36,821 nt of DNA from Pseudomonadota bacterium (GTDB lineage: Bacteria > Pseudomonadota > Gammaproteobacteria > Acidiferrobacterales > Acidiferrobacteraceae): positions 1-36,821 of the forward strand of contig JAKAXM010000023.1 of the NCBI GenBank assembly GCA_021816625.1, read 5' to 3'. This document shows, piece by piece, positions 3,992 to 14,590 of this stretch; positions within the stretch are counted from its first letter, which is position 1, and the number at the start of each line of letters is the position of its first letter. Position numbers and translations under genes: made by a program. The notes under the pieces were generated by a model. It was not told the origin of the DNA, searched no databases, and saw only the letters and a list, made by a program, of their open reading frames with translations.

Positions 3992-5301
3992 AGAAACCCC
4001 CTAACGCGATCCCGTATGCGTTGCACCGGGACCCCCAATAACTGCCTGGCCCTAATGCGGCCCGTCATGGTTGCCGCTTGCGTATGTAGCCGTTAACGAC
4101 CGCCTAAAGGCGCGTCATATCGCGTACAGACCACATACCTATAGCTCAAAACGGCCCTTGGCGACAATCACCCCATGGCCAAACCAGAGCGCGATCGATG
4201 AGTAATGCGATTTTAGATTGAGTCGCGAGCTCGCGACTTAAACACACATATACGAACGCATGGCTTACAAGGGGGCCGGCACCTTCAGACCGACATATAT
4301 CGTTCGCCTACAAGACTCGAAAAGAAGCCTTGAGTAAGGGCAATCTACACGGGCATACAATCCCCTGAGAGCGTACGGGCCTGGCACGCCTTCCTTCCGA
4401 TCCCCTCGGGGCCGGAATGAGACCGCTCACCACGGCCCCTTGCGCAGGATATCGAGCTCACCCCTGGAGTGCGCGCCCTGAGCCGCGCTGTTTTCGCGCC
4501 ATACGGCCCCGCAATGGTTCGCGACAAACTCAGGCACCATGCTAGGACCCCCTGGCCTGCTTGACAAGCAAGCTGATACGAAATCTCGTCTCCGGGAACG
4601 AAATCCATGGAAATCACCATTCGGGGGCAGCGCAGATAACACGGCGGCACAAAACGCAAGGCGCCTCGGTTGCGGGCCTTACAGGGGCCGGATGCCGATC
4701 CTAGGACCGCGGGTTACGCCGCTGCCGGCACAGGAGTTACGAGCCATATGAGTCGGGTCCTGCCGAGCGCAAGGATGCCCCAAACGCGGGCCAAACAAGC
4801 TCACCTAGGCCGGCAGCGAAAGTCAGACAGCCCGGAATGGCTTGGGCGACAACGGGCAAAGATGGGTCGATATGCCCGTCTTCCTAAGCGTGCGTAGACC
4901 GCGGAGGCCATGCGTCAGCCAGTATTCCCGTTCCGGCAGGCCGCCCTCTCTTGGCTACGCATTGGCATAGGGGCCCCGAATACGGGGGTGGTCCAGACAT
5001 CCTTATGGTCGCCCCTAGCGGGCCCCCCCGACCGGACCAGGGCGCAAAGCCACGCCTTGTCCTTCTGAGGCCGTCTGAGCCGACGTTTAGGAAGGCCGAC
5101 GGGCCAAGAGGCGTAGGCCTAAGAGCGGAATATCGGCCTCCATCGCTGCGGTCGGGTCTCGTTTTGGGGCCCTCTTTTGTTAAGTCCCGGCCGACCTGTG
5201 ACCCATATAACCCGCACACGTGCCATTTAAGTCCTGCAGGCTCCTACCCATCGGCGCTTCCTGCTAGACTTTGGCTAGTTTGTTCGGGATATTTAAACAT
5301 C
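3992..5301. other. gene-poor intergenic region
   Basis: 1.3 kb without a convincing gene. The part next to the ydeP-like start (about 4130-4330) is AT-richer and must hold that operon's promoter as well as the palindrome described separately. The rest (4340-5250) is GC-rich; its open frames on both strands have Pro/Arg/Gly-rich translations, no ribosome-binding sites and no family resemblance. I find no tRNA, transposase fragment or long direct repeat in it. A weak promoter for the gene at 5302 may lie at 5265-5294 (TAGACT, 18 bases, GATATT). Confidence 0.5.
4218..4241. promoter_or_regulatory. palindromic operator candidate upstream of the ydeP-like operon
   Basis: AGTCGCGAG and its exact complement form a perfect 18-bp palindrome at 4221-4238. 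After one mismatched pair the symmetry resumes with TT and AA, giving a 24-bp interrupted dyad. It lies 230 bases upstream of the ydeP-like start in the locally AT-rich segment. Perfect symmetry without a loop suits a homodimeric DNA-binding protein better than a terminator, and no T-run follows. Which regulator binds is unknown; the winged-helix protein of the operon is one candidate. Confidence 0.45.
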
Positions 5302-5616
5302 ATGCCCATAACTCAGAAGAGAACCCCTGCGCGATCCCAACGGACGTCTGGCAGCACACGCGCCTGTGCAGGTCTCGCCCTTATCGTCGCCATGCTGGGC
5401 GTGACCCCCGGCACCGCCTCGGCCGACATCAACCAGGCGGCCCGCCATATCGGGCAGGGCCTCGGATCCGCGGCCCACACGATAGGACGGGGGGCCAAGC
5501 ACATCGGTCTTGAAATCGGCCATGAGGCCAAACACGTCGGTATTACCATCGGCCATGCCGCCAAAGCCGGCGGTCTCGCCTTCTGGCATGCCGTGAAAGG
5601 GAAAGGCCACCACTAG
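5302..5616 (+). CDS. small secreted protein of 11-residue amphipathic repeats
   Basis: 104 residues, not a family I recognise. Residues 1-41 form a signal peptide: basic N-terminus, hydrophobic core ACAGLALIVAML, and cleavage after TASA. The mature 63 residues are repetitive: RHIGQGLGSAA (48-58), a 7-residue HTIGRGA, then KHIGLEIGHEA (66-76), KHVGITIGHAA (77-87) and KAGGLAFWHAV (88-98), ending KGKGHH. The 11-residue period with small residues at fixed spots (GxxxG at 69-73 and 80-84) predicts an amphipathic helix rich in His and Lys, as in lipid-binding or pore-forming peptides. The frame is open upstream to 4951, but ATG 5302 is the only start giving a signal peptide. No clear Shine-Dalgarno is seen. 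It converges on the pigment operon and shares its terminator; a functional link is unproven. Confidence 0.7.
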   Translation: MPITQKRTPARSQRTSGSTRACAGLALIVAMLGVTPGTASADINQAARHIGQGLGSAAHTIGRGAKHIGLEIGHEAKHVGITIGHAAKAGGLAFWHAVKGKGHH

Positions 5617-5646
5617 GCCACGGCCATAAGCCGGGCCGTGGCCTAG
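5613..5646. terminator. bidirectional hairpin containing both stop codons
   Basis: A perfect 13-bp stem (5613-5625 with 5634-5646) encloses an 8-base loop. The TAG of the repeat protein (5614-5616) lies in the left arm and the TAG of the opposing pigment-operon gene (5643-5645) in the right arm. The hairpin is GC-rich and symmetric, so it can form in both transcripts. No long T-run follows on either strand, so it may act as a transcript-end stabiliser as much as a terminator. Confidence 0.75.
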
Positions 5647-6440
5647 TCCAAAAAGCTAAGCTCCGCCTGGAGCTCACCGGCACGGGGGCAAGGCCACACC
5701 ACGGTAGTGGGCCGGCGCTTGGCTATGGCCTCCAAAAGTGGCAGGGCCCGCGCGGCGGGATTCCCTTGGCGCAGCGCCTCCCGCTCAGTGACCGGCATCG
5801 CCGTCTCCGTAGCGCCGCTACGCGGCTGCCAGCGCCAATCGAGGCGGGCAAGCGGCGATTGCCGCGGCGGTTCCGCACACAAGGCTAGCGCTACCGCAAA
5901 GGGCGCCACCACCTTGCGGACGGACGCCAAGGCGGCCGGCGCCGGCAGATCGTAGGCCACCAAGAGACACGTGCGCCGTGCCGGCAAGGTCGTCAAGGCC
6001 TCGAGCAGGCCGGCTGCGAAGCTCGCATCATAGGCCGACAGGCTCGTCGTGGGGGCGCGTGAGTGCGTTGCAATCCCCCAGTAGCCGCCGGCCGCATTAT
6101 GGACCGAATTGTGAAACAAGGTGGGGGACAGGACCGCTGGCGTCTGCGTCAGGGCCCGGCAATTCTTGTCGAGTATTTCGAGGTCACCGCTGCCCGAGCT
6201 CAAGACCGTCGCGACGCGGGCGGCATCCCATCCTGCCGCGCTCAAGGCCTGCATGCCGACATCGAGGGCATAGCGGGCACTGGCCGGACAGCGGCGCGCC
6301 TCGTTAGGGGACAGGCCGGTCGCCACAGGCGCGCGCAGCGCCGCCCCGAGGGGCCCCGCGCTCGCCAGGGCCGCAAGCCCCTGTTGCCCGTCCAACAAAC
6401 CCGGACCCAACATACCTAAGCCTGCCAGATAGGCGATCAT
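5643..6440 (-). CDS. ketosynthase-like chain-length-factor protein (ApeC-like), inactive
   Basis: 265 residues from the ATG that overlaps the stop of the upstream ketosynthase (ATGA). It matches the single-domain beta-ketoacyl synthase N-terminal-like proteins found beside the true ketosynthase in aryl-polyene clusters, where they form a heterodimer that shapes chain length. Visible features are VLSSGSGDLEILDKNC, the LFHNSVHNAAGGYWGIA stretch, and SLSAYDASFAAGLLEAL. The last aligns with the nucleophile elbow of ketosynthases but has no cysteine there, so no condensing activity is expected. It is about two-thirds the length of a normal ketosynthase, as usual for the family. It is the last gene of the minus-strand operon. 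Confidence 0.8.
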   Translation of the reverse strand: MIAYLAGLGMLGPGLLDGQQGLAALASAGPLGAALRAPVATGLSPNEARRCPASARYALDVGMQALSAAGWDAARVATVLSSGSGDLEILDKNCRALTQTPAVLSPTLFHNSVHNAAGGYWGIATHSRAPTTSLSAYDASFAAGLLEALTTLPARRTCLLVAYDLPAPAALASVRKVVAPFAVALALCAEPPRQSPLARLDWRWQPRSGATETAMPVTEREALRQGNPAARALPLLEAIAKRRPTTVVWPCPRAGELQAELSFLD

Positions 6441-7633
6441 CCGCGCCGCTCCAGCGCCAAGGTGCAATTACTTCCCCCAAAACCGAAGGTGTTGATCAAG
6501 CTCCGGCGCACCGTCGCCGCATAGGCCTGCAGGATCAACCGCGACCCAAAACCCGGATCCATCGCCACCGTATTCGCGGTCCCCGGGATATAGCCTCGTT
6601 CCATGGCCAGACCCGCAAAAGCGACCGCGCACATGCCGGCGGCCCCGAGCGTATGCCCCGTTGCCCCCTTGGTGGAACTCGCCGGCGTGCGCGCAAGACC
6701 CACGTGCGCCAAGGCCAGATCCTCAGCGGCGTCGTTGTGTACGGTCCCCGTGCCGTGCAGATGCACATAATCGACATCGCCGGCCTCCCAGCCCGCCCCC
6801 TCGAGGGCGGCCGCCATCGCCGCACGGGCCCCTTGCGCCTCCGGATGCGGGGCAGTCATATGGTAGGCGTCCGCGCTGTCGCCGACACCGGCAAGAGCCA
6901 ACACACCATCTCGCCAGGGGAGATCGGGTGCCGTAAGGAGGGCAAAACCGGCCGCCTCACCCACGCCAATACCGTCACGGTTCGCGCTAAAGGGTCGCGG
7001 TAGGCCTTTGGCCAATAAGCTCAAGGAATGAAAACCGTAGAGCGTGGTCTCGCACAGGCTATCGACCCCACCGACCACGACCGCTCGACAGATGCCGGCG
7101 GTGAGCCACCGCGTGGCCGTCGCAAAGGCCTTGGCGCTCGAGGAGCACGCGGTCGACACGACCAGGGCCGGTCCCGCGGTACCGAGATAACGGCTCACGA
7201 AATCGCCGCACGAAAAGACATTATGGGTCTCGCGATAGGGGAAGTCGGGTGGCAAGGCCCCGGTGCGCGCAAAATCCGCCGTCCGATAGGCGGCCTCGGT
7301 CGCACTGATTCCGGATGTACTGGTGCCGATCACGACCCCCACGGCCTGCGCGCCGACGCGCGCCCGACAGGCGGCCACGGACTCGGCAAAACCATCGGTT
7401 TCCAAAGCCAGCAAGGCGAGCCGATTGTTCCGGCAATCGTAGCGGGCGAGCGGGTCGGGCATGCGCACATCCTCCAACCCGGCCACACGCCCCACCGTAC
7501 ATGTAGTCCCGTCCCCAAGCGTATGGGCACCAAGGCCCGAGCGGCCGGCGAGGAGCGCCTCATAGTGAGCGGCCCGTCCGCGTCCTAGGGCGCTCACGAT
7601 CGTGTAGTCATGGATAGGCGTCCGGGGCGTCAT
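6437..7633 (-). CDS. beta-ketoacyl-ACP synthase (aryl-polyene type)
   Basis: 398 residues from the ATG overlapping the exporter stop (ATGA). FabF-like condensing enzyme with a complete Cys-His-His set: Cys163 in VVSTACSSSA, His293 in HLHGTGT, His327 in KGATGHTLGAAG with Lys322, plus the glycine-rich C-terminal NTFGFGGSNC. It would condense malonyl-ACP with the growing polyene. The next gene encodes its inactive partner, and an ACP is encoded four genes upstream, so the pair probably works as an iterative type II system. A longer upstream reading exists inside the exporter gene, but translational coupling and the family start favour 7633. Confidence 0.92.
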   Translation of the reverse strand: MTPRTPIHDYTIVSALGRGRAAHYEALLAGRSGLGAHTLGDGTTCTVGRVAGLEDVRMPDPLARYDCRNNRLALLALETDGFAESVAACRARVGAQAVGVVIGTSTSGISATEAAYRTADFARTGALPPDFPYRETHNVFSCGDFVSRYLGTAGPALVVSTACSSSAKAFATATRWLTAGICRAVVVGGVDSLCETTLYGFHSLSLLAKGLPRPFSANRDGIGVGEAAGFALLTAPDLPWRDGVLALAGVGDSADAYHMTAPHPEAQGARAAMAAALEGAGWEAGDVDYVHLHGTGTVHNDAAEDLALAHVGLARTPASSTKGATGHTLGAAGMCAVAFAGLAMERGYIPGTANTVAMDPGFGSRLILQAYAATVRRSLINTFGFGGSNCTLALERRG

Positions 7634-9933
7634 GATCGGCTCGCGTGCGACCAGGCGGCCGTAAAGGCGAGCGCCAGCAGGGCGCCGATGCTGACGGTAA
7701 GCCCAACGGACGCCAGGAGCGCCACGGGCGCGGTCGCCATTACCCCAAAACCCGTGACCGTCGTTGCCGCGCATACCCAGGGCGCCAGAGGCCGCCGCTC
7801 GCTGATCAAGCCGTGGTCGCCGAGAAACAAGGCATAGCCCATTCCCAGACCTGCAATCAATAGCAAGGCCACGACGTTCAAGAGCGTAAGCCCGTGGCCC
7901 ATGAGCACAAGCAAAGCCGCCGTCACGATTATGGCACCGGCCATGGGCACCACCAGGCGCACGCCTTCGCGCCAGGACCGCAGGCCCATAGCGATGACCA
8001 AAGCCATCAACAGGCCCGCCAAGATAGAATCATGCAATAGCGCGGTGCGATAGTGCGCCAATAGACCACTGACCGCGCGCTTGACCACGACGTAGTGGGC
8101 ATCAGGGACTCCGCTGTCGCGCACCAAGCGGGCCACCACGCCCGGCGCTTGCACGCCACTGAGATGGATGAATGCCACGCCGTGCCCATGTATGGTCATG
8201 AGCAGGCCACTTAACTTCGCGCGCATGACGGGGGGCACCGTACTCGGACGCAAAGGCGCCATATGACGCGCCTCATGCACCGCCGCAAGAAACGGGGCGA
8301 AGGCTCGCATCCGAAACGGCAGTCCGGCCGCGGCCCTCCGCAGATTGGCAAGCAGCACGGCGTGGCGAGGAAGGGCGGCCTGCCGGCGTGTTTGCACCGC
8401 GACGCTGGGCAGGTAGGCGGCCGCCAGGTCGTAACTGCCGATGGCGTGATCTTTTTTGAGGCGCCGTAGCGTCGGCACGAGTCCCTCGCTTGCGTGCAAC
8501 GCCCCTTCCCGATCCGGACCGATCACGACCAGCAGCGACGACAGGCCCGGGACCCCAAACTCACTTGCCATACGCCCAGTCTCAGCCATCAAGGCCCGGG
8601 GCGCCGGGCTCAAAGCGTGCAGGTGGTCGTTCCATACCGACCCGCCCTTGACATAAAGCACGCCAAGCGCAGCGAGCACGGCGATCGGCACCGCCATACG
8701 CCCGCGCCGCATGGCCGCCGTCGCCGCCTGCGCACGGCCGTCCCATCTCGATAGATCGGCATGCGGCTGCCAGTCGGGCATCAGGGATGGCAGGATAAAG
8801 CGCGCCGCAAGCGATGCCCCCAAGAGTCCCACGCTTGCAAAGACCCCGAGCTGCACGAGGCCGGCGAGGTGCGAAAAAAGCATGGTCGAGAATCCTATCA
8901 CCATCGCGATCACGGCCAGACCCAGTGCGCGTGAAATGCGCCGGGCAGCGGCCCCGACGTGTTCGCCGGGCCGCGCGTGCAAGAGCACATACGTGGGGTA
9001 ATCCATGGCGACCCCGATCAACATGGTGCCAAAACCCAAGGTCGTCACGGTCAGCTCCGAAAACACGAGACCGCTTACGGCCGTCGCGGCAAGCCCCCCC
9101 GTCAGCAGTGGTACCAGACTGCCAAGCAGCGGCGCCAAGGAACGGTAGACAAAAAACAAGATGGCCGCCACCAGCATGACATCGATGACAGTCAGGATCC
9201 GGGCGCTGCGCGCGACCTTAGCATTGGCAGCCACCGTGATTGCCCCGGTACCACCGATCTGTAAGGTCAACGCGGGTGCGGCAACCCGCATGAAGGCCTT
9301 ATGGATAATGGTAAGCGCGCGGCGCTGGGCGCTTGCGGAAAACCCCGACTGGCGGGTCTCCACCAGTAGTAGCGCTGCATGCCCCCGTGGTGACACCCAT
9401 ATCCCATGGCGTGTTTTCGGGCCCATCGATTGTATCCATGGCCGTCCGGCCGCCTGCAAGGCGCCCGTCGGGTCCGCCAATATCGCGCCCGAACTCAAGG
9501 CCGCCGGCGACTCCAAAATCATCAGATCGCGTTTTAGGTCGGCGCGCAAGGCCGCCGCACTCCAGGTCGTCCGGGGGGCCAGCAGGTAGCGATATCGCGT
9601 GAGAAATTGCGCGAAACCGCGCGCGGCGTCCTGTCCCCCGTTGGTGGCCAATGCGAACACTTGATGATGGGCCTGCAAACGCCGAACGAGTTGGCGGCTT
9701 GCATGCGCGCGCTGGTCTTGTGTCCCCCCCCGAATGGCGAGCAACAGCAGGCGGGAGGCTTGCCCTTTATGAAGGCCGCGCACCAGTGCGCGCTCCACCA
9801 CGCTTCCGGAGTTCGGGAGAAAGGCCGTGAGGCTGCCGCCAAACCGCGTAACCGCAACCACCAGGGCCGCCAGCACCAACATGGCCGCTACCCAAGCCCA
9901 CAGCAGACCGCGGGCCGACAGCGGCTGTCTCAC
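7630..9933 (-). CDS. MMPL/RND-family exporter of the pigment operon
   Basis: 767 residues from a GTG that overlaps the stop of the LolA-like gene (GTGA). The protein has the two-fold RND layout: an N-terminal membrane helix (about 10-30), a periplasmic domain to about 240, a block of membrane helices with the family's GFGTMLIGVAMDYPTYVLLH segment, a second periplasmic domain, and a final membrane block including LLLIAGLGMGYALFLGDHG. Aryl-polyene and xanthomonadin clusters typically encode such an MMPL exporter next to a LolA-like protein; both are thought to take the lipid-linked pigment toward the outer membrane. Short overlaps on both sides show tight coupling within the operon. Confidence 0.9.
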   Translation of the reverse strand: MRQPLSARGLLWAWVAAMLVLAALVVAVTRFGGSLTAFLPNSGSVVERALVRGLHKGQASRLLLLAIRGGTQDQRAHASRQLVRRLQAHHQVFALATNGGQDAARGFAQFLTRYRYLLAPRTTWSAAALRADLKRDLMILESPAALSSGAILADPTGALQAAGRPWIQSMGPKTRHGIWVSPRGHAALLLVETRQSGFSASAQRRALTIIHKAFMRVAAPALTLQIGGTGAITVAANAKVARSARILTVIDVMLVAAILFFVYRSLAPLLGSLVPLLTGGLAATAVSGLVFSELTVTTLGFGTMLIGVAMDYPTYVLLHARPGEHVGAAARRISRALGLAVIAMVIGFSTMLFSHLAGLVQLGVFASVGLLGASLAARFILPSLMPDWQPHADLSRWDGRAQAATAAMRRGRMAVPIAVLAALGVLYVKGGSVWNDHLHALSPAPRALMAETGRMASEFGVPGLSSLLVVIGPDREGALHASEGLVPTLRRLKKDHAIGSYDLAAAYLPSVAVQTRRQAALPRHAVLLANLRRAAAGLPFRMRAFAPFLAAVHEARHMAPLRPSTVPPVMRAKLSGLLMTIHGHGVAFIHLSGVQAPGVVARLVRDSGVPDAHYVVVKRAVSGLLAHYRTALLHDSILAGLLMALVIAMGLRSWREGVRLVVPMAGAIIVTAALLVLMGHGLTLLNVVALLLIAGLGMGYALFLGDHGLISERRPLAPWVCAATTVTGFGVMATAPVALLASVGLTVSIGALLALAFTAAWSHASRS

Positions 9934-10511
9934 GGCAGGATATGCATGTCCGAGAAATCCCCATTGGGCGCGCGCGTCTTGATCGTGACGAGCCGCGCCC
10001 CTTGCCCACGGATCATGACACTCGTCAGCGCCCTCTTGAGCGCTGCCAAGCGGGGATGTAAGGTCAAGCGCCAGGACTGGGGGGTTCCTTGCAGACGCGT
10101 CTTGAAGTCATGGGCCAGGAGCGCGTAATTCCCGCTCAAGAGACCTTCGAAACCGGAGACGATGGCAATCACACCGGGATAGCGGCTAACGGGCACACCA
10201 CGCTCGGAATGATTCACAAAAAGCCGGTTGCCTTCGATGCGGTAGACGGCTTTGTGCGGCGCGCTTTGCGTCATGATCAAGGTATGCGGCTTGCGGAATT
10301 GCAGGGTACCGTGCGCACGGATGGGGTGGCGCAGGCTTGCCAAGTGATTGACCTCGACGAAGCGCACCTCATGGCTTACGCCGCGGCTCAGGGTGTGTAG
10401 CAGTGCCGGCACCCCCCACGGCTGTGGGTGCGCCTCGACCCTGCTCACGGCTGCCATCGACAGAAGTCCGCCGGCGACCGCCGCGACCCACCTCGGATTG
10501 CCAAAAGTCAT
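9930..10511 (-). CDS. LolA-like periplasmic carrier
   Basis: 193 residues. Residues 1-27 are a signal peptide (WVAAVAGGLLSMAAVSRVEA). The mature part resembles LolA-type carriers: LLHTLSRGVSHEVRFVEV, then HGTLQFRKPHTLIM, YRIEGNRLFV, and the C-terminal LTSVMIRGQGARLVTIKT with an NGDFSDM ending, which recalls LolA's two-layer fold. In aryl-polyene loci this protein is thought to shuttle the lipid-linked product across the periplasm, next to the MMPL exporter encoded just downstream. Its first 143 bases lie inside the upstream acyltransferase frame, in another phase. The signal peptide begins exactly at this ATG, so the overlap looks real rather than a mis-called start. Confidence 0.85.
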   Translation of the reverse strand: MTFGNPRWVAAVAGGLLSMAAVSRVEAHPQPWGVPALLHTLSRGVSHEVRFVEVNHLASLRHPIRAHGTLQFRKPHTLIMTQSAPHKAVYRIEGNRLFVNHSERGVPVSRYPGVIAIVSGFEGLLSGNYALLAHDFKTRLQGTPQSWRLTLHPRLAALKRALTSVMIRGQGARLVTIKTRAPNGDFSDMHILP

Positions 10512-11391
10512 AGAAGTTAAACCAATTGTCGGGCGCGATACGGCAATATGCCTCTAGGGCCGAGACATAGCGCGCCCCCAGATCACGCATCCAGGCAGCA
10601 CGCAGCGGTCCAGGCGGCGCGGGTCCGGACAGCGGCTTGAATACTAGCTCATAATAACAGGAGCCATCAACGGCCCTACGGTAGAGGGCCGTAAAAAAGA
10701 ACACGGGCGCCCCGAGCGCCGCGGCCAGCCGCAGCGGACCCAGGGGAAAGGACGCCGTCTCCCCCAGAAAGCTCGCCTCGTACGTCTCCTCGCCGGCACG
10801 CACCCGGTCGCCCATTACCCCTACCAAACCCCCCTCCGCCAGGGTCTCCTTGACTTGCAGGAGCGCCGCCGGACCCCCGAGAGTCACAACCGACTGCTCG
10901 GCCCCCGGATGCAAGGCGGCCAGGATAGAATTGAGTTTTCTCGAGATGCCCGGGTGCATGATGACCTGAATCTTCAAGTCTGGCCGGAGGAATCCCGCCG
11001 CTCGCGCGGCCTCGAAACTCCCCAGATGGGCCCCCAACAAGACGGCCCCCGTGCCGCTTTGCAGGGCCTGTTCCACGTTCTCGAAGCCATGAATCTCGTA
11101 CGGCGGCGCATCCTTGTGCCGCGCCAATAGATAGGTACGGTCGAGTATGGTCCGCGCAAAGGTCAGGTGGTGATGGAATAATTGCGCAAGCCCCGCCCCG
11201 CCTGGTGTGATATGCGCATGATACGCTGCCAGACCTTGCCGCCCGTCCCGAGCAACGACAAAGAAATAGGCCGTAACGGGCCACAGCAAAAACCGGGCGG
11301 CACGCCGCCCGACCATAAGCGCGAGGCTGCGCCCGGCGCGTATACCCCAAGCCGCTCCATACTCGCGTTTATCAAACCAGGCTCGGGCCAT
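10369..11391 (-). CDS. HtrB/LpxL-type acyltransferase of the pigment operon
   Basis: 340 residues from ATG 11391, chosen for the AGGAAGG before it; an ATG at 11418 is also in frame but lacks a ribosome-binding site. The lipid A acyltransferase family motif is present: GAVLLGAHLGSFEAAR holds the HxxxxE-like catalytic pattern (H, then E), followed by LVGVMGDR and the SFPLGPLRLAAALGAPVFF block. The conserved end NWFNFYDFW is reached about 43 residues before the stop. The remaining Arg/Gly/Pro-rich tail is read from bases that also encode the LolA-like protein and is probably not conserved. In aryl-polyene clusters such an enzyme attaches the polyene to a lipid or sugar-lipid anchor at the inner membrane. 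Confidence 0.9.
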   Translation of the reverse strand: MARAWFDKREYGAAWGIRAGRSLALMVGRRAARFLLWPVTAYFFVVARDGRQGLAAYHAHITPGGAGLAQLFHHHLTFARTILDRTYLLARHKDAPPYEIHGFENVEQALQSGTGAVLLGAHLGSFEAARAAGFLRPDLKIQVIMHPGISRKLNSILAALHPGAEQSVVTLGGPAALLQVKETLAEGGLVGVMGDRVRAGEETYEASFLGETASFPLGPLRLAAALGAPVFFFTALYRRAVDGSCYYELVFKPLSGPAPPGPLRAAWMRDLGARYVSALEAYCRIAPDNWFNFYDFWQSEVGRGGRRRTSVDGSREQGRGAPTAVGGAGTATHPEPRRKP

Positions 11392-11440
11392 GCCCCTTCC
11401 TAGCGCTGCGCGGCGCATGCAAGGCAGCGCCTGGCATTCT

Positions 11441-11707
11441 TTAAGCGCGGCGCGCCGCTATGGTGGCGGCCAGTGCCCGCAAGGACGCGAAAATCGTCGC
11501 GTTCTCGGGATCGTCGGAGCGCAACTGAATGCCATAATGCTGGGAGATGGCAAGCGCGATCTCTAGCATATCGATCGAATCAAGGCCCAGACCCTCACGA
11601 AACAGGGGTGCCTGCGGATCGATAGCGGCCGGATCAAGCGCTAAATTCAAACTGCTCACGAGCAGCTGCGCAATCTCGCGCTCAAAATCGGTTTGCTCAG
11701 TGTTCAC
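11441..11707 (-). CDS. acyl carrier protein
   Basis: 88 residues, starting at GTG with GAGGA upstream. The phosphopantetheine site is Ser44 in LGLDSIDMLEIAL, the standard ACP motif, followed by the acidic helix and LRSDDPENATIFASLRAL. Length and charge are normal for a discrete ACP of a type II system. It would carry the growing polyene for the ketosynthase encoded downstream. It sits 50 bases before the acyltransferase and 41 bases after the MipA-like gene. Only one ACP is seen in the operon, whereas many aryl-polyene clusters carry two. Confidence 0.93.
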   Translation of the reverse strand: MNTEQTDFEREIAQLLVSSLNLALDPAAIDPQAPLFREGLGLDSIDMLEIALAISQHYGIQLRSDDPENATIFASLRALAATIAARRA

Positions 11708-11748
11708 TCACCACGTCCTCGTTTGCCTAGATTTCCCGTTTGTCGCAC

Positions 11749-12597
11749 TCACGCGCCGCCCTGGGACCGGGATCGCAGAAACACCCATACGACAGCGGTT
11801 CCCACGATGACGGTATTGGAGGCCTTCATCAGGGGGCTTGCCGCAAATACGGCCCCCCGGTAGTTCCGATAGCGCGCAAAAAACGCAATATCGATAGGCC
11901 CCATGCGCGTCGATATCGCCCCCGTCAAACGCACGCCTGCGTAACCCCCAGGCGCCCCATAGGCCGGCCGCCCGGCTGTCGCATACGGGGCTTGCACGCC
12001 GAAAAAGTAATCGTTGACCCCGCGGCTGCGAAAAACGGGGCCCAAGCTTATCACAATGGGCCACGTGCGCCCTCGGGGACTGTGCCATTCGACGAAACCC
12101 GACGCACTGGTCCCGACCCCGGTAATCCGAAAGCTCGAATCAACGGCAAAGCGGTAGCGAACCCGGGCGCCGAGCGCGGTGCGCAAGCCCCCAGGATGCC
12201 AAGCAAGGGCGTACATGACATCCGGCCCGATGGCAAAGGTCGGCAAGAGCGCCGGCATGCCGGCACGCGCCGCCGGAGACCCGGCCGCCGCGGGCGGCGA
12301 GCCGTTCGCACCGAGGCCGAAGCTCAACGGAGAATCAGGGGCCCACTTGGCACGCAAATGCTCATGGTGCAGATGGAGGACAGGCGACTCATAATCCCAG
12401 TAGGGGTAGGGGTAGACGAAGAACCGTTCACTGTCCGAGGCCGGATAGGCCGGCGCCAGAAACAGGGCAAGGCCTATGCCTCCCCGATAATGGGCCTCCC
12501 CGGCCACGGCCCGGCCCGCCGCAAACGCCAGGACGACGACACCCGCCCGGACGGCCGCACACAGTCGCCCGCGCCCCGCTACCCCGCGATTTTCCAT
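11749..12597 (-). CDS. MipA/OmpV-family outer-membrane protein
   Basis: 282 residues with a signal peptide (cleavage after GRAVA, about residue 32). The mature protein matches MipA/OmpV beta-barrels: a start with YRGGIGLALFLAPAYPASDSE, alternating hydrophobic and polar strands, the SRGVNDYFFGV stretch with following YGAPGGYAGVRLTG, and an aromatic C-terminal strand. AGGGGA precedes the ATG. MipA-like proteins are scaffolds or barrels of the outer membrane with no settled substrate. Lying between the chorismatase (43-base gap) and ACP (41-base gap), it is almost certainly co-transcribed with the pigment genes, which is not a standard component of such loci. It might host or bind the pigment in the outer membrane; that is only inference. 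Confidence 0.85.
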   Translation of the reverse strand: MENRGVAGRGRLCAAVRAGVVVLAFAAGRAVAGEAHYRGGIGLALFLAPAYPASDSERFFVYPYPYWDYESPVLHLHHEHLRAKWAPDSPLSFGLGANGSPPAAAGSPAARAGMPALLPTFAIGPDVMYALAWHPGGLRTALGARVRYRFAVDSSFRITGVGTSASGFVEWHSPRGRTWPIVISLGPVFRSRGVNDYFFGVQAPYATAGRPAYGAPGGYAGVRLTGAISTRMGPIDIAFFARYRNYRGAVFAASPLMKASNTVIVGTAVVWVFLRSRSQGGA

Positions 12598-12640
12598 GTT
12601 TCCCCTTCTGGCCTCGTCGCGCTGCCTGTTCGACCCGCCC

Positions 12641-13582
12641 CTAGCACCGGGCCTGGACCACCGCCTCGATCTCGACGGTAAGCTCCAAGCGGCAGATATT
12701 GCCCTGCAAGATCATGATAGCCGACTGATCCCAGGGCGGCGGCAACGCCCCGAGCGGGGCCGGCGCACGCATGTAGATCTTGGTCGCGAGCACACGCGGC
12801 TCAGGCCCCATCTCGGCCGCTGCCAGCACCGTCGCGAGATTCGTAAAGGTCTCACGGGTTTGCGCGGCGAGATCCCCGGGCGCTTGGCTCGCATGGCCGA
12901 CGATCGCCGCCGTGCCCGAGATCCAGAGTAGCCGGCCTTGTCCGGGCCGGTCCACCGCCATGGCGCGCGCAAAGTCCGGGGGGCGCGGCCCATAGGTCTC
13001 GGGGTAACAATAAGCCGGCAGCTGTCGGGGGTTTTCGATGGGGACGCCCGGGAGAGCACGCGCCAACACATGGATGGTGAGCGCTCCGCGCGCACTCCCT
13101 ATGCAGGTCGCCGCGGGGCGCGGGGCCCCTTGCGCCAGATAGGACCGAAAGGCCTCGTGGCGGCCGCGATTGAACTGGCGATATCGCTCGAGACCCTCCT
13201 CTACGCAATGGATCTCGGGAAAGTACTGCCAAGCCCGGATCAGATACGGATAACCCTGCTCCCGGCACAGCCGCAAGACGCGGCCGTAGGCGGCCGCCGA
13301 ATCCGCTTGCAGGGTGCTCGTATCGGCCACCTCGATGGCCGCGAACAACCAGTCACCATCATGGGCGTAGCGCACCCCGTCGCGCACGCCGCCCTGCACG
13401 CGACCGGCCGTGAGGATCTCGCAAACATCCGCCTGCGGGGCCGTAAGCGGCACCGACACACGCGGGGCCACGCCGCTCCAAGGCCAACGTTCGGGAGTCG
13501 CCCCGTAACATACGACCCCGAGGACGTCATCCCGCCCCTGCCACTGTGCCAGTCTATCGGCCGGCTCGTAAAAAATCTGCAT
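12641..13582 (-). CDS. xanB2: XanB2-like chorismatase
   Basis: 313 residues from ATG 13582, preceded by AGGGAG; a TTG at 13642 is in frame but unlikely. The protein matches the FkbO/Hyg5/XanB2 chorismatase family, which splits chorismate into pyruvate and hydroxybenzoate or dihydroxycyclohexadienoate. Family marks are AWQYFPEIHC with ERYRQFNRGRHEAF (about 117-145), YCYPETYGPRPPDFARA (191-207) and LLWISGTAAIVGHAS (218-232), and a RidA-like C-terminal half with ETFTNLATVL. In Xanthomonas, XanB2 makes 3-hydroxybenzoate for xanthomonadin and 4-hydroxybenzoate for ubiquinone. As first gene of an aryl-polyene-type operon, it probably supplies the aromatic starter here. Product specificity cannot be read from the sequence by eye. 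Confidence 0.9.
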   Translation of the reverse strand: MQIFYEPADRLAQWQGRDDVLGVVCYGATPERWPWSGVAPRVSVPLTAPQADVCEILTAGRVQGGVRDGVRYAHDGDWLFAAIEVADTSTLQADSAAAYGRVLRLCREQGYPYLIRAWQYFPEIHCVEEGLERYRQFNRGRHEAFRSYLAQGAPRPAATCIGSARGALTIHVLARALPGVPIENPRQLPAYCYPETYGPRPPDFARAMAVDRPGQGRLLWISGTAAIVGHASQAPGDLAAQTRETFTNLATVLAAAEMGPEPRVLATKIYMRAPAPLGALPPPWDQSAIMILQGNICRLELTVEIEAVVQARC

Positions 13583-13711: not shown

Positions 13712-14590
13712 ATGCCCAAATTGGATGCTCGGCACGTCTTTCAGGCCGTCAATATCGTCGACGGTCTCATGGGGGCGGCCGCGATCGCACACGCGCTCCC
13801 AAGTGCTCCGAGCCTCGCTTGGATAGCCACCAGCCAGGCCGCCTTGGCCATGGCCTGTCTCTGTCCGCGCTGTCCCCTCGTGGGCCCGGCGATCGTCTCT
13901 GTCCCGACTGCCAAACCCTACGTCGCCTTGACCTTTGACGACGGTCCGGACCCTGCGCTTACACCCTACGTCCTCGACATACTGGCGCAGTATGACGCCA
14001 AAGCCAGCTTCTTTTGCATCGGCGAGCGCGTCCGCGCCCACCCCGCGCTCGCGCGCGCCATTGCCGCAGCGGGCCATGGTGTCGAGAATCATAGCCTAAA
14101 CCATCGCGCGGGCTTTGCCTTACTGGGCTCAGGGGGGATTGCGCGGGAGGTCGACCACGCGCAGCGGCTGCTTGCCGACACGACCGGCCAGAGCCCGGTT
14201 TTTTTCCGGGCCCCATCAGGCTTTCGTAACCCCTGGCTCGCCCCCCTTCTGGCCGCGCGCGGGCTGCGTTATGCCGCCTGGTCGCGCCGCGGCCTCGATA
14301 CCATCGACCCGGATCCGGCTCGTATCCTGCGACGCGTCTCGCACACCGTCGCGCCCGGTTCCGTCCTGCTCTTGCATGACGGCCGCAGTGCCCACGATCG
14401 GCAAGGAGAGGCGGTCCTGCGCACGGTCTTACCGCGACTCCTGGCCGAGTTAGGCGAACGCGGGCTGCAAGCCGTCGATCTGCGTAGCCTCTGGCGGCAA
14501 CGCCTGCGGATCAGCCCCCAGACTGTCGTCGGCCCGTCCCCGCCTCCCGGCTTCTCAGATAGTCCTCATAACCGCCGCCGAAGCTCGTAA
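13712..14590 (+). CDS. polysaccharide deacetylase (NodB domain)
   Basis: 292 residues from ATG 13712 with GAGGT six bases upstream. A membrane-anchor-like hydrophobic N-terminus (about 10-55) is followed by the carbohydrate esterase 4 domain: motif 1 LTFDDGPDP with the catalytic base and metal Asp, motif 2 HSLNHR, motif 3 [11 protein letters not shown], motif 4 [10 protein letters not shown], and motif 5 SVLLLHDGR. All metal-binding residues appear intact, so it should remove N- or O-acetyl groups from an envelope glycan. It is divergent from the pigment operon and may modify the glycan part of a related product. The last about 27 residues overlap the ybiT gene in antisense and look like read-through after VDLRSL. 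Confidence 0.88.

Follow-up and report, generated by a model that had tools for sequence, protein, structure and literature searches.

Pigment loci of the xanthomonadin and aryl-polyene kind have been described in several bacteria. The arc loci of Azoarcus sp. BH72 (arcuflavin), as presented in PMC3949708, contain the same gene families as the system considered here and form two unlinked loci, each with one gene shown to be necessary for pigment. In Xanthomonas, XanB2 is described as a bifunctional chorismatase, unrelated to UbiC, that provides 3-hydroxybenzoate (3-HBA) for pigment and 4-hydroxybenzoate (4-HBA) for ubiquinone (PMC5069965; PMC3949708). Here we analyze a stretch of 36,821 nucleotides from a Pseudomonadota genome of the Acidiferrobacteraceae (GenBank assembly GCA_021816625.1, contig JAKAXM010000023.1, positions 1 to 36,821, forward strand), the whole of which is called the window, and a minus-strand operon of eight genes within it. 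This operon is very probably the condensing-and-export half of a xanthomonadin-type aryl-polyene pathway, whose activation-and-reduction half would lie in an unlinked operon downstream of groESL on contig C28 of the same genome. A literature search for Acidiferrobacter together with polyene gave no match, and none of the 12 papers listed out of 615 from a wider search mentions Acidiferrobacter; the collection covers few subscription journals, and absence from print is not claimed.

The operon in the window

The open reading frame (ORF) check and profile searches placed the operon at 5643-13582 and agreed with a preliminary description of the window on all eight ORFs, their strand and their families:

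12641..13582, minus strand: chorismatase of the FkbO/Hyg5/XanB2 family (TIGR04444, 206 bits, 5.9e-61, under its cut-off of 325)
11749..12597, minus strand: MipA/OmpV-like outer membrane protein (PF06629, 2.6e-26), whose Azoarcus counterpart in the account of PMC3949708 is arcC
11441..11707, minus strand: dedicated acyl carrier protein (ACP; NF006617, 123.5 bits, above the cut-off of 70), with the serine motif LDSI
10369..11418, minus strand: Lip_A_acyltrans-like acyltransferase (PF03279, 1.2e-6; HLGSFE motif), with a predicted role in joining the polyene to a lipid anchor
9930..10511, minus strand: LolA-like periplasmic carrier (LolA_3; PF19574, 2.1e-20)
7630..9933, minus strand: MMPL/RND-family exporter (PF03176, 3.4e-12)
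6437..7633, minus strand: chain-elongating ketosynthase (KS; NF006618, 442.8 bits, above the cut-off of 407), with its catalytic motifs
5643..6440, minus strand: half-length KS-like partner of 265 residues, chain-length-factor-like (CLF; PF13723, 4.9e-23)

The Cys-His-His set of the KS is intact (TACSS, HGTGT and GHTLG), and at the KS active-site column its partner lacks a Cys, in line with the earlier description of the partner as inactive. Half-length CLF-like partners have precedent in Lysobacter ORF16 and ArcJ (PMC3691225, in its account of such pairs). Between chorismatase and CLF, the successive intergenic distances are 43, 41, 22, -143, -4, -4 and -4 bases for the likeliest starts. The preliminary description gave overlaps or gaps of at most 50 bases, which is correct for six junctions and fails between acyltransferase and LolA, where the overlap is 143 bases if LolA starts at the ATG at 10511 and smaller if it starts later. 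Its remark that ligase, ketoreductase and dehydratases are missing from the operon also stands: no pathway ligase, reductase or dehydratase was found among the 29 window ORFs scanned.

The complementary locus on contig C28

The family sample comprised 18 genomes, the window's own and 17 others: 14 assigned to the genus Acidiferrobacter, three of its sister genus (g2) and one of g3. Below, G denotes a genome, L a locus and C a contig, and window-type and C28-type loci are called A and B loci. An AMP-binding search of the window's genome and 17 others returned strong, ordinary-looking matches plus weaker ones. Among the weaker matches is a divergent ligase, present as one copy in the window's genome at 84195-85547 of C28, and the ~20 kb stretch around it was read as locus L080. 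After groEL, one strand carries ORF276, the ligase, a FabA-like dehydratase, a weak ApeP-like dehydratase and a FabG-like reductase; convergent with these, the opposite strand carries a halogenase-family flavoenzyme (Trp_halogenase family; WFWFIP, a WxWxIP motif) and a family-2 glycosyltransferase (GT2).

The ligase is assigned to the aryl ligases of the XanA2/ArcT kind by its position beside ACP in foreign loci, not by sequence comparison with XanA2/ArcT. The ketoreductase passes its profile cut-off (NF004200, 341 bits vs. 273), as does the FabA-like dehydratase (29.4 bits vs. 23). The reductase is 42% identical to, and distinct from, the FabG-like gene just before FabF on contig C35. A ketoreductase and two dehydratase-like genes are present at C28, the ApeP-like one, which is the only such match in the genome, scoring below its curated cut-off. 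The LolA-like carrier, MMPL exporter, acyltransferase and KS with its adjoining half-length CLF-like partner are all in the window, and the window KS is the only ketosynthase of the genome above the pigment-type cut-off. Genes that would form a single cluster in a xanthomonadin-type locus stand in two loci, although one cluster is no strict condition for this type, Azoarcus being split as well.

The preliminary description had called the operon biosynthetically incomplete, which is true of the operon alone and not of the pathway, completed at C28. It had offered three readings: a locus split in the genome, service by housekeeping FabG/FabZ, or a product unlike known pigments. The genome search it proposed found the ligase, the reductase and the dehydratases at C28 and bears out the first; the second is not needed, given the dedicated reductase and two dehydratase-like genes there, and the gene set does not call for the third. 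As contrary evidence it had named a second complete set carrying a ketosynthase of its own; none was found, the one pigment-type KS being that of the window (second MMPL or LolA genes were not searched for). A related reading makes the operon a relic served by housekeeping FabG, FabZ and another ligase. The FabG-like gene directly before FabF on C35 would suit it, but 13/14 genus genomes have a dedicated set alongside the operon, and we regard this reading as scarcely credible.

Gene content, the complementarity of the two loci and the conservation of their split are direct observations, from which we infer the substrates and the product. The window's chorismatase would convert chorismate to 3-HBA, the pigment starter, and the C28 ligase would load it on the window's ACP. 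KS and its half-length partner would add malonyl units, each of which the C28 ketoreductase and two dehydratases would convert to a double bond. Attachment of the polyene to a carrier lipid may fall to the window's acyltransferase and the C28 glycosyltransferase, and MMPL, LolA and MipA may carry the product to the outer membrane. Halogenation of the ring is probably the task of the C28 halogenase; products of xanthomonadin-type pathways are 3-hydroxyphenyl polyenes, often brominated, and a halogenase-family gene with WxWxIP is present here.

The window's chorismatase matches PDB 5ag3 (1e-44) and FkbO (4bps, 1.8e-37). Like 5ag3, it has Gly in SGTA and Cys in ICR, whereas FkbO has Ala at both positions. 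Gly and Cys residues are given as characteristic of the 3-HBA-forming CH-Hyg5 class in PMC7170507; that the Gly and Cys of the window would correspond to these residues, and that 5ag3 would be Hyg5, is our own reading. Chorismatase occurs in 18/18 family genomes (17/17 others plus the window's own). UbiC (PF04345) was found in 0/18 of them and in 9/14 other genomes of the order, and UbiA is above cut-off in 8/8 family genomes tested. Over these 32 genomes, chorismatase is present in 22/23 without UbiC (the exception is G034) and in 3/9 with UbiC. Because every family genome has chorismatase and none has a detected UbiC, the enzyme probably serves ubiquinone synthesis as well as pigment, the same protein probably supplying the 4-HBA. 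G015 has chorismatase (L173:733-1611) with no pigment ligase and no KS above the pigment-type cut-off, which fits this dual role. One enzyme feeding both pigment and ubiquinone is thus predicted for this acidophile family, and would explain chorismatase kept without pigment genes. The chorismatase match in G004 (contig C58) covers profile positions 4-231 of 311 only.

The C28 operon lies directly downstream of groEL, on the same strand, in 13/13 genus loci. This immediate position 3' of groEL would suit co-transcription with groESL, by which this half of the pathway would be heat-shock driven. In 13/13, however, the groEL stop is followed after 47-52 bases by a strong hairpin with a run of 6-7 T behind it, and in 11/13 a TGNTAT-type -10 candidate was seen by eye after the hairpin. 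We rejected co-transcription, which we consider highly unlikely, because this terminator-like hairpin and T-run separate groEL from the operon in every locus. A shared promoter motif was also rejected: the C28 -10 pattern, sought upstream of chorismatase in 14 genus loci, was absent. On the far side of groES lies an alpha/beta hydrolase gene (Hydrolase_4; L080:14945-15730), a possible thioesterase, 61-67% identical in 11/12 other genus B loci; the contig of L084 ends before it. Neither a thioesterase nor a methyltransferase, both present in the E. coli-type cluster, was found among the scanned window ORFs or in the C28 operon, the two places to which the search for them was confined.

Conservation and history of the split

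The ligase was found in 13/14 genus genomes (own included), 3/3 g2 genomes and 0/1 of g3. In the 13 genus genomes it is never close to chorismatase: the two are on different contigs in 11, and where both loci share a contig they are 1.43 Mb apart in G005, which is a single 3.4 Mb contig, and 1.25 Mb apart in G009. Different contigs alone are little proof of a split, and the surroundings of the two loci provide a further basis. In all 13 genus B loci, groEL stands on one side and the convergent GT2/halogenase pair on the other, and each of these loci unites ORF276, ligase, both dehydratases, reductase, GT2, halogenase and groEL. None of the nine A loci with the whole operon (window, L065-L070, L176 and L180) holds a ligase.

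Comparison of locus order across relatives, as the preliminary description had suggested, therefore finds the split kept in 13/13 genus genomes with a ligase and the genes joined in the sister genus, where the ligase is at most 3 kb from chorismatase in 3/3. In G014 and G016, the ligase and a FabA-like dehydratase stand between ACP and acyltransferase, and a reductase and GT2 follow CLF, all in one run with the window-type genes that starts beside the deacetylase.

A named collection supplied the best 80 of 497 loci. Of these, 76 come from other genera and count as foreign, and in 50 of the 76 the ligase is flanked by 8 kb in either direction. In 47 of the 50 the ligase is accompanied by both KS and MMPL, and chorismatase is present in 13. 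The ligase, KS and exporter together are the rule in this sample, and the genus, with the three split in 13 genomes, departs from it. Some other genomes of the order, e.g., G024, G026, G033, G040 and G053, also have ligase and chorismatase on different contigs, and some of these may be truly split. An apparently incomplete pigment operon is resolved in this way; a cluster search that takes contigs one by one would rate either half as partial.

Several points weigh against assigning the two operons to one pathway, or against parts of that assignment. All chorismatase matches fall below the TIGR04444 cut-off (0/60 relatives above it), and sequence alone does not fix the product of a chorismatase, as stated in PMC3949708. 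The UbiC family is divergent, so not finding it counts for less than finding it would. The dehydratase scores at C28 are weak (ApeP-like 19.9 vs. a cut-off of 27, ApeI-like 15.9 vs. 28.5), only the FabA-like one passing, and ORF276 matches no Pfam family. No regulatory motif common to both operons was found. G008 (85% complete) has a window-type operon with no ligase or halogenase match. In the sister genus, G016 is the only genome with a match to the ApeP-like gene (E 1e-4), ORF276 gives weak matches in G014 and G017 and none elsewhere, and the cluster has no halogenase.

Further variations were observed among the relatives. In G008, a Resolvase-family protein (PF00239) and a 553-residue ORF without Pfam match are inserted between MipA and ACP (L179:3469-5671); the ORF looks like a TnpB-type protein, and the insertion resembles an IS607-like element. 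In L065 and L067, the acyltransferase match is broken into two parts separated by ~300-400 bases. Another halogenase-family gene, with 65-67% identity, occurs as a second copy in G003:C64, G006:C85, G007:C126, G011:C38, G012:C25 and G013:C25, and as the only copy in G016:C9 and G017:C18 of g2. Six of these eight matches have stops inside, the G012 match is only a fragment, and no pigment genes lie nearby in L197, L198 and L199.

Two histories could have produced the split. In the first, part of a native cluster (the window half) was kept, part of a betaproteobacterial-type cluster (the C28 half) was gained, and each lost what the other supplied; functionally this agrees with the pairing of the two operons, and we give it slightly less than an even chance. 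In median identity to queries from the window's genome, nine window-side genes (chorismatase, MipA, ACP, acyltransferase, LolA, MMPL, KS, CLF and deacetylase) have their nearer counterparts in the sister genus and their more distant ones in foreign loci (MMPL 50% vs. 33, acyltransferase 57 vs. 37), and three C28 genes show the reverse, being closer to foreign loci (ligase 49 vs. 45, ketoreductase 63 vs. 58, GT2 64 vs. 31). Only 1-3 sequences per gene represent the sister genus in this comparison, and matches covering <45% of the query were dropped, which removes all its ORF276 and dehydratase matches. In the trees of KS, acyltransferase and chorismatase, the two genera group with 100/100 support, with the alternative tested and rejected for acyltransferase and chorismatase, whereas the free ligase, ketoreductase and GT2 trees do not join them. 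The convergent reductase/GT2 tail, with the same GT2 subfamily, is found in 13/13 genus loci and in 14/30 foreign loci with both genes; the sister genus (2/2) has another GT2 subfamily in co-directional arrangement, as do two loci of the order holding both genes.

Against the gain of a second cluster, the approximately unbiased (AU) test rejects joined genera for GT2 only (p 0.0004). The ketoreductase is borderline (p 0.053), and neither the ligase (p 0.57, the joined tree fitting slightly better) nor ligase plus ketoreductase (p 0.41) is rejected. Moreover, the branch leading to the sister-genus ligase is long, the two GT2 genes could just be different genes, and of the 30 foreign loci with both genes three are co-directional and 13 have them not adjacent. 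The quick trees had 98 rows for ligase and 71 for KS; the test trees had 53 for ligase, 39 for ketoreductase, 31 for GT2, 39 for ligase plus ketoreductase, 47 for acyltransferase and 28 for chorismatase. The AU-test trees covered 28/76 named loci and six genus rows, short or weak matches being dropped by length and score limits. This history is suggested, with only partial backing from the tests; it was expected from the quick ligase tree, but the AU test gave no backing for the ligase, and it is kept as a rival.

In the second history, one ancestral cluster had two internal blocks moved beside groESL in the genus ancestor. The sister genus has these blocks, ligase/dehydratase and reductase/GT2, in place within its cluster, and the AU test does not reject common descent of the ligase. 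Such a relocation requires that both blocks moved and ended up side by side, however, and GT2 subfamily and orientation differ; we consider it plausible but place it somewhat below even probability.

If a second cluster was gained, the pathway may be chimeric, a view we advance tentatively. The condensing and export enzymes would descend with the family and those for activation and reduction would stem from a second, betaproteobacterial-type cluster, reciprocal loss leaving neither half able to work alone; chorismatase would tie pigment to ubiquinone and so be kept even where pigment is lost. Whether ligase, ACP, KS and reducing enzymes can still cooperate when they are encoded at separate loci, and perhaps derive from separate lineages, is a question for which the split offers a natural test.

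Flanking genes and comparison with known systems

Three features flank the operon:

13712..14590, plus strand: divergent polysaccharide deacetylase (PF01522, 3.5e-28; arcN in Azoarcus)
5612..5647, no strand assigned: hairpin separating the operon from the small convergent gene (stem of 14 bp; z -4.7 on one strand and -4.5 on the other), a putative terminator at most
5271..5616, plus strand: small convergent gene, probably not a pathway gene (tblastn; conserved beside the cluster)

A polysaccharide deacetylase occurs in 47/50 well-flanked foreign pathway loci, and the Results of PMC3949708 give arcN of Azoarcus as a polysaccharide deacetylase. We therefore count the divergent gene within the system, as a pathway-associated gene and not an outside boundary. 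Of the boundaries drawn earlier, a divergent gene and a shared hairpin, the hairpin is real, but no T-run follows it on either strand, and the deacetylase belongs to the system. A terminator scan of the window did not return the hairpin; its sole result, at 5676-5657, is at chance level (0.7 expected). The small convergent gene has tblastn matches at 43-52% identity in 7/8 other genus loci with the full operon, being absent only from L180, whose sequence begins near CLF at a contig end, and is matched at 46% in L071, beside the joined sister-genus cluster of G014. It flanks the cluster in both genera and is probably not a pathway gene. Between chorismatase and deacetylase, a conserved block around CTACACGSATTCG is present in 10/14 genus loci and not in the window.

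To our knowledge, the E. coli aryl-polyene cluster has neither chorismatase nor halogenase. As described in PMC8253772, it shares with the present system KS/CLF, ApeI/ApeP dehydratases, an ApeQ reductase, an acyltransferase, Lol-like proteins, an RND exporter and hydroxybenzoate activation, and differs in using 4-HBA and in having two ACPs, a putative thioesterase and a methyltransferase, all in one cluster. The yellow pigment clusters of Lysobacter and Xanthomonas, in the account of PMC3691225, have a KS with a half-length CLF-like partner, a XanB2-type enzyme, ACP, reductase, two dehydratases and an outer-membrane carrier protein, as here. The same account gives Xanthomonas a halogenase, as here, draws the thioesterase of Lysobacter as unknown and shows Lysobacter with a single cluster, ORF1-17, in contrast to the two unlinked loci here.

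The sister-genus cluster (G014 and G016; L071 and L072) shares the chorismatase-MipA-ACP-...-KS-CLF backbone beside the deacetylase but is unsplit, with its ligase and reducing genes placed as above, another GT2 subfamily and no halogenase. The arc loci of Azoarcus add dialkylresorcinol genes. A polyene-dialkylresorcinol hybrid of the arcuflavin type was rejected for the window's genome, where no DarB-type KAS III-like enzyme was found and the one KAS III C-terminal match (PF08541) lies on C35 beside fabF; G009 has a second, weak PF08541 match.

In common with the present system, the arc loci have chorismatase, MipA, deacetylase, a halogenase gene and a half-length KS partner, and the gene list given for them includes no thioesterase (PMC3949708). 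The cut falls elsewhere: that account places ligase, ACP, one dehydratase, acyltransferase, LolA and exporter together in Azoarcus, and chorismatase, KS, reductase, glycosyltransferase and halogenase together, whereas in the window's genome ligase and ACP are in different loci, as are the reducing steps and KS. Split xanthomonadin loci are already known from Azoarcus, and the arrangement found here adds a variant, not another kind of system.

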